Below are positions 49,503 to 53,578 of a DNA stretch of 64,000 bases, piece after piece. Position numbers and translations under genes: made by a program. Location: contig NZ_KB904653.1 of the NCBI RefSeq assembly GCF_000380165.1, forward strand, positions 1 through 64,000, read 5' to 3'. This DNA comes from Wenjunlia vitaminophila DSM 41686. Its GTDB lineage: Bacteria > Actinomycetota > Actinomycetes > Streptomycetales > Streptomycetaceae. How positions within the stretch are numbered: position 1 is the first letter of the stretch; every line of letters starts with the position of its first letter. The notes below the pieces were generated by a model. That model worked only from the letters and a program-made list of their open reading frames with translations. It did not search any database and was not told the origin of the DNA.

Positions 49503-50528
49503 TCAGTTCACCCGCTGCGGCTCGTCCTGGGGGCCGTGCGGATCGCTCTCCGCGTGCTCCCCGGCGGAGCCTTCGACCTCGGCGCCCGGCTGCCGTCGGG
49601 CGGCGCGCAGGCTGGTCACCGTGGTGACGGCGAGCACCGTGACGATGAAGCCCAGGGAGACCGGGATGCTGATGTGCGGCACGTGCACCCCGGAGCCGTG
49701 CAGGGCCTCGAGCACCAGCTTCACCCCGATGAAGCCGAGGATCACCGACAACCCGTAGGACAGGTGCACCAGCTTCTTGAGCAGCCCGCCGATGAGGAAG
49801 TAGAGCTGCCGCAGGCCCATCAGCGCGAAGGCGTTGGCGGTGAAGACGATGTACGGGTCCTGGGTGAGACCGAAGATCGCCGGGATGGAGTCCAGGGCGA
49901 ACAGCACGTCGGTGGTGCCGATGGCCAGCATCACCACCAGCATCGGGGTGATCAGTCGCCTGCCGTTCTCCCGGACGACCAGCGCGGTACCCCGGTAGCC
50001 ATCGGTCGCGGGGACGCGCTTCCCGACCGCCTTCAGCAGGCGGTTCTCCTCGAACTCGGTCTCCTCCTCGTCCGCCCTCGCCTCCTGCACCAGCTTCCAG
50101 GCCGTGTAGATCAGGAACGCCCCGAAGAGGTAGAAGACCGCGGAGAAGGTGCTGACGAGCGCGGCGCCGGCGGCGATGAACCCGGCCCGCAGCACCAGGG
50201 CGATCAGCACACCCACCAACAGCACCCGCTGCTGGTAGCGCGGCGGCACCGCGAACTTCGCCATGATCAGCACGAAGACGAACAGGTTGTCCACGCTGAG
50301 GGACTTCTCGGTGACGAATCCGGCGAAGAACTCGCCGGCCGGCTCTCCTCCGGCGAACACCGCGAGGCCGGCGCCGAACAGCAGCGCCAGGGAGATCCAG
50401 ACCACCGTCCACGTCCCGGCCTCCTTCAGGGAGACCTCGTGGGGTTTGCGGCCGATGAGGAAGTCGATCGAAATCAGGGCGGCGAGACCGAGAACGGTCG
50501 CGAGCCAAAGGGTCAGGGAGACATCCAC
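49503..50528 (-). CDS. TerC-family integral membrane protein (probable Mn2+ exporter)
   Basis: 341 aa from GTG 50528 with GGAGGA upstream; eight or nine membrane helices. The TerC metal-site motifs are seen: EKSLSVDNLFVFV and, symmetrically, GTTDVLFALDSIPAIF. The charged loop near residues 150-165 and a polar C-terminal tail are normal. Relatives such as Alx and YkoY export manganese. The upstream yybP-ykoY element supports a Mn2+ role here. Confidence 0.93.
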   Translation of the reverse strand: MDVSLTLWLATVLGLAALISIDFLIGRKPHEVSLKEAGTWTVVWISLALLFGAGLAVFAGGEPAGEFFAGFVTEKSLSVDNLFVFVLIMAKFAVPPRYQQRVLLVGVLIALVLRAGFIAAGAALVSTFSAVFYLFGAFLIYTAWKLVQEARADEEETEFEENRLLKAVGKRVPATDGYRGTALVVRENGRRLITPMLVVMLAIGTTDVLFALDSIPAIFGLTQDPYIVFTANAFALMGLRQLYFLIGGLLKKLVHLSYGLSVILGFIGVKLVLEALHGSGVHVPHISIPVSLGFIVTVLAVTTVTSLRAARRQPGAEVEGSAGEHAESDPHGPQDEPQRVN

Positions 50529-50529
50529 C

Positions 50530-50714
50530 GTGGTTCGTCCTCCGGCAGTGCGGGCGTTGACAACGTCAGCGGGATCCCGGTGGGGGATCGCTGCCGGAGG
50601 TCTCTTCCACCCGGTGCGTGGCGCACGGGCCGGGGCCCGGGCCCGCCAGGTCCGACCGGACCTGGACGCGCCGTGATGACGGGCTCACCGCTTAAAGGAG
50701 TACTCCCCTCCGCG
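50530..50714 (-). ncRNA. yybP-ykoY manganese riboswitch in the terC leader
   Basis: Read leftward, the leader holds GGGGAGTA (from 50708), then CCCGTCATCACGG (50671-50683 region), a perfect hairpin at 50646-50665, and TTGTCAACGCC near 50552-50562. These match the conserved blocks of the yybP-ykoY class. CCTCCGGCAG (50591-50600 on the + strand reads as its complement) can pair with CTGCCGGAGG, which contains the ribosome-binding site (50539-50548). So Mn2+ binding could free translation. Known members sense Mn2+. Confidence 0.8.
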
Positions 50715-50720
50715 TAAAGA

Positions 50721-50749
50721 ACAGTACATGAACACCAAGAGCAGGTAAA
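50721..50749 (-). promoter_or_regulatory. promoter of the terC riboswitch transcript
   Basis: Read leftward, TTTACC (50744-50749), 17 bases, TACTGT (50721-50726). The expected start of transcription is near 50714, just before the GGGGAGTA block. The rest of the gap to 50863 shows no gene. Confidence 0.7.
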
Positions 50750-50863: not shown

Positions 50864-52855
50864 CTACCCGCCGCTTCCCCACGCCCGCCGGGCGGCGCTC
50901 ACCCGCTCCCCCACCTGGTGCAGCACCAGGCTGTCCGGCGGCGGGAGCTGCGGGGAGAACGTCCAGGCGTGCCCCACCCACGGGTCGGCGAGGTGGTCGT
51001 CCGGGGTCGGGGTGAGCCTCAGCAGGGACCGCCACAGCGGGTCCAGGACCGGCCCGTAGGCCCGGGCGTCCTCCCGGTCGGCCACCATCATCAGGTGCAC
51101 GCCCACCGAGGGACCCTCGTCAGCGAGGTATCGCAACTGGGTCACCGAGCGGTCGTCGAAGCCGTAGGGGAAGTCGTTGACGATGAGGAGCTGCTCGCTG
51201 AGGTCCAGGTGCTGCGGCAGCGCGTCCGAGGCCCCGCCGCGCACCGCCATCTGCACCAGGTCCACCCGCTGGATCAACTTGGCGATCATGGAGCTGACGC
51301 CACCGGCTCCGGTGGCCACCGGGTCCTTCAGCGCGCCGCTGTGCACCAGCGGCGCCAGGGCCGCGGCCCCCGAGCCGGCCGGGTCGATGACGTTGACCGT
51401 GAAGTCGCTGGCCGGGTAGGCCGCCAGCATCCGGGTGGCCAGCGCCACCCCGACCTCCATCGCCAGCTTCCTGGCCTGGTCCGAGTCGACCGTCATGGGG
51501 GTGTTCGGGGAGCGCCCGCTGTCGATCCACAGGCCGCGCTCGAGCGGCAGCCGCACCAGCATGGGGATGCGGAGCTCAGGGTGTTCCGGGAGGTGGAGGT
51601 CTCCCAGGCGCACCGCCATCGGCGTCTCCATGGGCACCTGGTACCCGTGCCACACCGCGCTGTCCCAGGCGGCGAACGCCGGCGGCAGGGCGGGCTCGAC
51701 CACCGCGGCCTCGGCCGCGAGCTGGGCGATGTCCCGGTCGAGGCTGGCCTTGGCCTGGTCGACCAGCGCGCTGTGCCTGGCCCGGGCCGAGGAACGGGCG
51801 GCGTCGGCTGCGGCACCGACCCTGGCGGCCGGGTCGGACAGCGCCCGGTCCAGCTCCTGGTCCATCCGGGAGTCCGCGAAGTCCACCGCGCTGCGGTAGG
51901 CGGCGGTGGTCCTGGCCAGGTCCTCGAACATGCCCCAGACCTGGTTGTACAGCCGCTCCTCCATCGTCCAGCCGGACGCGTTGCCGGCGACCGGCCGCGA
52001 GGGGTCGGCCGCGGTGGGCGCCGGCTCGGGCGGGGCGGGCGGAGCGGCGGACCGCCGGTTGGGGTGCTGGTAGTTCAACCGTCCGCCCGCGCCCTGGGCC
52101 GGCGGCTGCGTGCGGTTCTGGGCGCCGGGGCCCGGGGTGCCCGGGCCCTGGGTGCCCGGGCCCGACCCGGGGGGCGGGCCCGGGGGCGTCGCCGGGGCCG
52201 GGTGCGGCGGCTGTCCCGCCGCGGCGGTGTTGCCACCCACGGTGGCGGCCCGGCGCGTCCGGTCGCCCTCCGCGCGCGGCGGCGGGGGCGCCACCGAGCG
52301 GGCAAGGCCGCTGGCGACCGCCTCGTTGATCGCCGCAGCCATCTCCGCCGCCCCGGGCAGCCCCTGGTCCTGGAGCATGGCCGCGAGGCCACCGGCGTAG
52401 CCCTGCCCGACCGCGCGGACCTTCCAGCTCCCCTTGCGCAGGTACAGCTCGACCGCCACGACCGCCGACTCCGCGTCCAGGTCGGTGATGGTGTAGGTCG
52501 CGATCTCGGTGCCGTCGAGGCCGGTGATCGCCACGAATGGCGCGGCCACGGCACCGAAGGTCCGCGGCGCGCCGTCCACCACGGGCAGGGCCAACAGCAC
52601 GTTCACCCAGTGCACGTCCCCGGGGAGGGCACCGAGGTCCACCGCGAGGCGGTGGTCCGCGGCGGCCTGGCGGGACACTTCGAGGCCGGGGAGCTTGGGC
52701 GAGGCGGGATGGGCCACCCAGGCCGAGTCCCGTACCTTGCCCTGGGCGTCGCCGAGAGTCACACCGGCAATGACCGGCCTCCCGGCGGACACTCGCACTT
52801 CCAGGCGGTTGTCCGGGAGTGGGTGGTTCTGCCCCCGGACCAACTCGGCGCTCAT
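50864..52855 (-). CDS. TerD-domain protein fused to a large C-terminal domain
   Basis: 663 aa. Residues ~1-190 are a TerD-like calcium-binding beta-sandwich (LPGDVHWVNVLLALP, SAVVAVELYLRKGSWKVRAVGQGY). A Pro/Gly-rich linker covers ~195-300. The C-terminal ~360 residues contain a helical part and an alpha/beta part with TVNVIDPAGSGAAALAPL, LLIVNDFPYGFDD and VGVHLMMVADRED. These look like strands of an FtsK/HerA-type ATPase, but no Walker A lysine is visible. It is 56 bases after the stand-alone terD gene. A role in stress or tellurite-type defence is inferred. Confidence 0.8.
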   Translation of the reverse strand: MSAELVRGQNHPLPDNRLEVRVSAGRPVIAGVTLGDAQGKVRDSAWVAHPASPKLPGLEVSRQAAADHRLAVDLGALPGDVHWVNVLLALPVVDGAPRTFGAVAAPFVAITGLDGTEIATYTITDLDAESAVVAVELYLRKGSWKVRAVGQGYAGGLAAMLQDQGLPGAAEMAAAINEAVASGLARSVAPPPPRAEGDRTRRAATVGGNTAAAGQPPHPAPATPPGPPPGSGPGTQGPGTPGPGAQNRTQPPAQGAGGRLNYQHPNRRSAAPPAPPEPAPTAADPSRPVAGNASGWTMEERLYNQVWGMFEDLARTTAAYRSAVDFADSRMDQELDRALSDPAARVGAAADAARSSARARHSALVDQAKASLDRDIAQLAAEAAVVEPALPPAFAAWDSAVWHGYQVPMETPMAVRLGDLHLPEHPELRIPMLVRLPLERGLWIDSGRSPNTPMTVDSDQARKLAMEVGVALATRMLAAYPASDFTVNVIDPAGSGAAALAPLVHSGALKDPVATGAGGVSSMIAKLIQRVDLVQMAVRGGASDALPQHLDLSEQLLIVNDFPYGFDDRSVTQLRYLADEGPSVGVHLMMVADREDARAYGPVLDPLWRSLLRLTPTPDDHLADPWVGHAWTFSPQLPPPDSLVLHQVGERVSAARRAWGSGG

Positions 52856-52911: not shown

Positions 52912-53490
52912 CTACAGGTGCGCGGCGATCGCCGGCATCAGGTCCTGGAAGGTACGGCCACTCGTCGGGGAGCCGATCGCTGCCATCTGCCAGCCGTTGC
53001 CCGCCCGGTACACCTTCGCCATGACCTGGGCGGTGTACTGACCGCCACCGGTGAGGGTGTAGCGGGCCAGCTCCTGCCCGTTGCTCTCGTCCACGAGCCG
53101 GCAGAAGGCGTCCTGGACCTCCTGGAAGGTCTGGCCGGTGAAGGAGTTCACCGTGAAGACGATCTGGCTGATGTGCACCGGCACCCGCTGCAGGTCCACG
53201 AGGATCGACTCGTCGTCACCGCCGCCCCCGGCCCCACCGACCAGGTTGTCCCCGGTGTGCCGCACCGATCCGTCGTCGCTCACCAGGTGCTGGAAGAACA
53301 CCACGTCCACCGGCTGGCGGTCCGCGAACAGCACCGCGGACGCGTCCAGGTCGATCTCGCGGGTCCGGCTACCGAACAGCCCGCGGCGCGGCGCGGCCTT
53401 CCAGCCCAGCCCCATCCGCACCACGCTGAGCGCGCCACCGTCGGACTTCTGCAGGCTGATCGACTGGCCCTTGGCCAGGTTCACCGTCAC
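52912..53490 (-). CDS. TerD-family stress protein
   Basis: 192 aa from GTG 53490, with GAGGAGG eight bases upstream. It has the TerD core: SLGLGWK-like RMGLGWKAAP near residue 30, DLDASAVLFA, then VVFFQHL, GDDESILVDLQRVP and the final GNGWQMAAIGSPTSGRTFQDLMPAI. Family proteins bind Ca2+ and form part of tellurium and phage/colicin resistance clusters. The TerD-fusion gene follows on the same strand, so they are probably one operon. Confidence 0.93.
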   Translation of the reverse strand: MTVNLAKGQSISLQKSDGGALSVVRMGLGWKAAPRRGLFGSRTREIDLDASAVLFADRQPVDVVFFQHLVSDDGSVRHTGDNLVGGAGGGGDDESILVDLQRVPVHISQIVFTVNSFTGQTFQEVQDAFCRLVDESNGQELARYTLTGGGQYTAQVMAKVYRAGNGWQMAAIGSPTSGRTFQDLMPAIAAHL

Positions 53491-53578
53491 GTGCTGTGCC
53501 TCCTCGAGAGTGCCACCATCGTTCAAACCGCGGCGGCGCTCCGCTCCTTGGCGGGACGACCGCGGCTCTGCAGCACCC

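Follow-up and report, generated by a model that had tools for sequence, protein, structure and literature searches.

The terC locus and its leader

In the 64-kb stretch of DNA that was analysed (the window, to whose positions all coordinates refer), the minus strand carries a terC gene preceded by a leader RNA spanning approximately 50714-50529. The product of terC matched Pfam PF03741 (E=5.6e-52) and is 86% identical to the TerC protein of W. tyrosinilytica, the closest named relative, so that the genome most likely belongs to Wenjunlia (Streptomycetaceae) and not to Streptomyces itself. Two TerD-domain genes lie upstream on the same strand, and a gene-like frame was found beyond terC on the opposite strand, indicating that terC probably stands alone. 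Read along the minus strand, the region comprises TTTACC, 17 nt, TACTGT, a segment opening with GCGGAGGGGAGUACUCC that starts at most 8 nt further on, GUCAUCA, GGAAGAGACCUCCGGCAG, CUGCCGGAGG and the GTG start codon. The features are listed in this order, with (-) denoting the minus strand.

50864-52855 and 52912-53526, (-): two TerD-domain genes, upstream of terC
50721..50749, (-): putative promoter; -35 TTTACC 50749-50744, 17-nt spacer, -10 TACTGT 50726-50721
50594..50713, (-): predicted aptamer domain, alx-like, without P2 hairpin; from covariance models R1, R2 and R3
50707..50712, (-): P1.1 5′ strand CGGAGG, a hexamer identical to that of the ribosome-binding site
50701..50706, (-): L1 5′ strand GGAGUA, invariant in 47/47 leaders and also present in E. 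coli alx and mntP
50697..50700, (-): P1.2 5′ strand CUCC; partner GGAA 50608-50605, the outer C-A being non-standard
50691..50696, (-): six-nt linker replacing the P2 hairpin of other members, likewise in E. coli alx
50686..50690, (-): P3.1 5′ strand CGGUG; partner CCCCG 50635-50631, one U unpaired
50672..50683, (-): L3 5′ strand CCCGUCAUCACG, with GUCA and ACG invariant in 47/47 leaders
50641..50671, (-): P3.2 extended hairpin, a predicted fold that covaries in relatives
50637..50640, (-): L3 3′ strand CCGG, from the leader alignment and the alignment to E. coli alx
50610..50629, (-): P4 hairpin closed by CCC/GGG, from the leader alignment and covariation analysis
50608-50591, (-): GGAAGAGACCUCCGGCAG, read from the minus-strand sequence
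50601..50604, (-): L1 3′ strand GAGA, part of a GAGACC motif common to E. coli alx and mntP
50591..50600, (-): putative switch strand CCUCCGGCAG, i.e. the P1.1 3′ half (50600-50595) and the anti-ribosome-binding-site strand
50539..50548, (-): CUGCCGGAGG, with the ribosome-binding site GGAGG (50543-50539) within the sequestering helix
49503..50528, (-): terC, GTG start at 50528, 341 aa, downstream of the leader

The promoter that an initial annotation had placed at the terC leader could be found as TTTACC-17-TACTGT. The pattern TTTAC.-17/18-TA[CT]..T recurred in 67 of the 79 related leaders, as against 0.03% of shuffled sequences; a strict sigma-70 scan of the window did not list the terC-leader promoter. 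Transcription presumably starts near 50714, immediately 5′ of P1.1. A CTTGGT-like motif was also observed in the spacer between the -35 and -10 elements (50743-50727); it is conserved across relatives, including some without an aptamer, and is possibly the site of a regulator.

Two of the sequence blocks that the same annotation had assigned to the yybP-ykoY class, leaving their strand unstated, are both present on the minus strand: GGGGAGTA at 50708-50701 and GTCATCA (GUCAUCA in the RNA) at 50680-50674, inside L3. The combined pattern gave a single match in the 6.4-Mb genome. A perfect 10-bp helix burying the terC ribosome-binding site could likewise be observed, formed by CCUCCGGCAG and CUGCCGGAGG and covering GGAGG, so that the presence of these leader elements is confirmed. 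GTCAACG (50561-50555), which had been taken for a second class block, falls within the expression platform and has GTAAACG as its counterpart in the sister species, indicating that it is not an aptamer element. It sits between the arms of the ribosome-binding-site helix, is not conserved, and was rejected as a part of the aptamer.

Conservation of the leader and covariance models

The same leader was found at 80 of 110 terC loci, 79 of them with GGGGAGTA and the 3′ part and one with GGGAGTA. In 47 non-redundant aptamers, L1 (GGAGUA/GAGA) and L3 (GUCA..ACG) were invariant or nearly so, and the P1.1 5′ strand read CGGAGG in 46 and UGGAGG in one. For the covariation test the structure was set by hand (P1.1, P1.2, P3.1, P3.2 and P4); 94.5% of its pairs were standard, and 10 of the 22 pairs showed changes on both sides. 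None of 500 shuffles, which ignore relatedness, reached this level of covariation, and pairing dropped to 35-56% when the structure was slid. Covariation fell mostly in the P3 helices, with covarying pairs in P3.1 among relatives, and P1.1 was near-constant; it supports the helices predicted for the aptamer. Within the genus P3.1 is weakened, by the unpaired U in the window and by a C-A mismatch in W. tyrosinilytica. The ribosome-binding-site helix showed no variation at all in 7 of its 10 pairs, and MFE folding of the window alone gave z = -1.5.

Three covariance models were used. R1 was built from 47 terC leaders, including those of the window and the sister species but no E. coli sequence, and R2 from 44 terC leaders of other genera, the genus of the window being left out. 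R3 comprised 17 leaders that had been found through sub-threshold RF00080 matches, mostly ahead of GDT1 genes and also of other transporters; none came from the terC leader set or from the genome of the window. By the tool's own statement the E-values of the models are rough, and the argument rests on score gaps. R1 scored the window at 73.7 bits with the window copy in its training set, and R2 at 71.6 bits (E=3.8e-13), the next best match within the window reaching 17.0 bits. In E. coli, R1 matched the alx leader at 38.7 bits (E=8e-7), followed by a next best score of 10.7, and showed a weak match of 10.2 bits to mntP; on RF00080 sub-threshold loci of other Actinobacteria it scored 39-49 bits. 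R3 gave similar scores for mntP, alx and the window (36.6, 35.8 and 35.3 bits), and in the whole genome it returned two matches at E<=1, namely a GDT1 leader on contig C16 (78 bits) and the terC leader (E=1.9e-4). Separately built models therefore join the window to alx and mntP, and membership in the yybP-ykoY class, as initially proposed, is supported by all three models and by the covariation. Matches of R1 (terC-type) occurred in 101 of 150 family genomes and matches of R3 (GDT1-type) in 100 of 101 Streptomycetaceae genomes.

A search against RF00080 (Rfam 15), the check that had been suggested for this leader, gave no match in the window or the leader at gathering or permissive thresholds, and no usable match in ten relatives. 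In the whole genome (6.43 Mb, 111 contigs) just a fragment of 9.9 bits was obtained, elsewhere, and a scan of 150 genomes of the family and 297 of the class yielded nothing above the gathering cut-off (45 bits). Yet the E. coli K-12 alx leader was also without a match at E<=10, and the E. coli K-12 mntP leader scored 41.6 bits, below the cut-off. Since the model misses the verified member alx and scores mntP below its cut-off, the 45-bit threshold does not define the class, and the non-match is not valid as a refutation. The likely cause of this blind spot is that the model expects a P2 hairpin, which is absent in alx and in the streptomycete leaders. Sub-threshold RF00080 matches in Streptomycetaceae had appeared noise-like at first, but those examined turned out in the main to precede GDT1 genes and to belong to the same class. 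Absence of a match to RF00080 (Rfam 15) is thus not absence of the element, as alx and all Streptomycetaceae leaders tested were missed at the cut-off. The interest of the locus is moderate, chiefly because the present Rfam model overlooks an entire lineage.

Relation to known manganese riboswitches

The class is already known, and the streptomycete terC leader is an added member in the alx-like form. As in E. coli alx, the predicted structure contains P1.1, P1.2, P4 and an L1 internal loop in which GGGGAGUA (50708-50701) faces GAGA (50604-50601) of the GAGACC motif above P1.1, and lacks a P2 hairpin. The GAGACC motif is also found in the X. oryzae construct (PMC6754395). Both leaders have a P3 with CGUCANUACG and CCGG; in the window the GUCA-bearing L3 (50683-50672, CCGG 50640-50637) lies between P3.1 and P3.2 and aligns to the L3 of alx, whose 5′ strand reads CGUCAUUACG. 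By homology, L3 may be taken as a metal-site loop. A TerC protein is encoded downstream in both cases, that of the window being 39% identical to E. coli Alx. Unlike alx, the leader of the window is GC-rich, the 3′ strand of its P1.1 is itself the anti-ribosome-binding-site strand and the 5′ strand copies the hexamer of the ribosome-binding site, whereas P3.1 is longer in alx. E. coli mntP shares the loops and the logic of P1.1 with the window, but it has a P2 hairpin, another spacing in L3 and a different gene, encoding MntP. E. coli alx and mntP are verified members of the class, and both respond to Mn2+ (PMC9603457).

The aptamers of L. lactis and X. oryzae, which are known from crystal structures, resemble the window in the P1.1 switch helix, the L1/L3 metal-site loops, P3 and P4, but they form a four-way junction with P2. 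Since P2 is absent from the terC leader, which has the six-nt linker (50696-50691) instead, this leader falls outside the four-way-junction form known from crystals. The yybP-ykoY element of L. lactis acts as a transcriptional antiterminator (PMC11087558), in contrast to the translational output proposed here. Among Actinobacteria, the C. glutamicum terC (cg2157) leader gave a 49-bit RF00080 match in an older Rfam release and has an RNA-seq-mapped leader transcript (PMC3890552); by its published description it can be likened to the window as an actinobacterial terC leader. Actinobacterial GDT1 leaders, including the one on contig C16, belong to the same class by R1 and R3 and are mostly without P2, but their L3 reads GUCGACAUACUGG and they precede another gene family. 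Within the literature searched, no report of a manganese riboswitch at a terC leader in Streptomyces was found.

Predicted switch, alternatives and target genes

The leader very probably represents a manganese riboswitch of the yybP-ykoY class in the P2-less, alx-like form that acts on translation. CCUCCG (50600-50595) is common to P1.1 (50712-50707/50600-50595) and to the helix over the ribosome-binding site, so that the two helices are mutually exclusive; the 3′ strand of P1.1 is also part of the expression platform. Two partners are available to CCUCCGGCAG, CGGAGG at the 5′ end (P1.1, 6 bp) and CUGCCGGAGG (10 bp), and only one of them can be paired at a time. This shared strand supports the anatomy for translational control of terC that had been proposed initially. 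A helix of 7-10 bp over the ribosome-binding site was present in 33 of 33 leaders checked. Computed without ligand, the off state had an advantage of about 7 kcal/mol in the window, and 77 of 79 leaders favoured it. The ribosome-binding site had a mean unpaired probability of 0.02 in 68 aptamer-bearing leaders, compared with 0.45 in 10 aptamer-less leaders; the aptamer-less relatives represent a natural control.

In the proposed mechanism, the transcript would begin at its first helix, P1.1. At low manganese the 10-bp helix would prevail and terC would remain untranslated. At high manganese, docking of L1 and L3 would stabilise P1.1, and the ribosome-binding site would become free and TerC could be made, which in turn would lower free manganese or load exported enzymes. 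Mn2+ is known to work in this class by stabilising P1.1, as established for L. lactis and X. oryzae (PMC6754395, PMC11087558). The model places the off state far below the on state in energy, so that reaching the on state would call for tertiary contacts or for folding that proceeds co-transcriptionally. By analogy with alx, the terC leader may also respond to alkaline pH.

A group of terC loci (L008, L010, L020, L031 and others) was observed in which the promoter and the ribosome-binding site are retained and the whole aptamer is gone, so that the leader measures about 25 nt. In further loci (L037 from S. noursei, L069, L007 and L011/L042) the aptamer is partly deleted and the region of the ribosome-binding-site helix is retained; these leaders are possible locked states.

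Several points count against the reading as a manganese riboswitch, i.e. the lack of a match to RF00080, the absence of P2, and hence of the four-way junction seen in the crystal structures, the one unpaired or mismatched position that weakens P3.1 in the genus, and the size of the modelled gap to the off state. The same sensor might act on transcription instead of translation, through Rho-dependent or pausing-linked attenuation. Untranslated leaders can serve as Rho targets, and this output, although improbable, would agree with S. coelicolor RNA-seq data, in which a yybP element ahead of SCO2347 was read as attenuation (PMC4681348). A terminator scan of the leader, however, found no terminator-like site, the leader being without an intrinsic terminator, while in every leader examined it is the ribosome-binding site itself that the switch strand can pair with, and ribosome-binding sites are more exposed in the aptamer-less relatives. 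It is quite improbable that the leader, as an RNA of this class, takes alkaline pH or a divalent metal other than Mn2+ as its main signal and Mn2+ as a secondary one. The closest verified relative, alx, does answer to alkaline pH and to Mn2+ alike, both being required for full activation (PMC9603457), and the terC-type L3, CGUCANNACG, differs in detail from GUCAACAUAC of mntP. But alx and mntP both answer to Mn2+ (PMC9603457), and the genes downstream of the leaders in relatives encode Mn/cation transporters.

The 10-bp helix is the most striking single feature by eye, and it could be imagined as nothing more than a hairpin that covers the ribosome-binding site, giving constitutive damping or acting as an RNA thermometer with no metal sensor. 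The upstream 120 nt are, however, conserved, covarying and homologous to alx, a GC-rich helix of 10 bp should stay closed at growth temperature, and species without the aptamer have mostly lost the sequestration too, which makes such a hairpin very unlikely. Chance resemblance, to which the silence of RF00080 might point, has a negligible probability and is refuted by the conservation and the model results: R2, with the genus left out, still reached E=3.8e-13, the motif pattern occurs only once in 6.4 Mb, and 80 of 110 terC loci are alike.

With regard to the manganese riboswitch and its targets, the TerC protein had initially been called an exporter. Efflux activity has indeed been reported for TerC proteins, but this is only part of their reported roles, which also include the metalation of exported enzymes (PMC10550928). 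These roles, Mn2+ export and the loading of exported enzymes, matter where many enzymes are secreted. The initial suggestion that the neighbouring ter genes are tied to metal stress found no support; the switch lies behind its own promoter after the TerD-domain genes and would thus act on terC alone and not on them. Leaders of this type are located upstream of genes for Mn/cation homeostasis, TerC in the window and transporters in relatives. Among 51 candidate frames 3′ of related leaders, to which one locus may supply more than one frame, 16 encoded TerC, 9 GDT1, 4 an E1-E2 P-type ATPase and 4 a Na/Ca exchanger; all four are gene kinds that are controlled by the manganese riboswitch class elsewhere.

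A broader proposal can be put forward tentatively, although we lean against it as a whole: a P2-less three-helix subclass, with alx as its type, would prevail in Actinobacteria and be near-universal in Streptomycetaceae genomes while remaining invisible to Rfam. In this subclass the terC transcript would open with the same hexamer as that in the ribosome-binding site, one strand choosing between two identical partners, and the missing arm may alter the response to metal or pH.

Related leaders could also be observed ahead of Na/Ca exchangers and P-type ATPases in other Actinobacteria (L126, L146, L163 and others). The genome of the window itself contains a second manganese-riboswitch-like leader (L182:1232-1340, corresponding to C16:109878-109986), which is missed by RF00080 and lies ahead of a GDT1 gene (PF01169).
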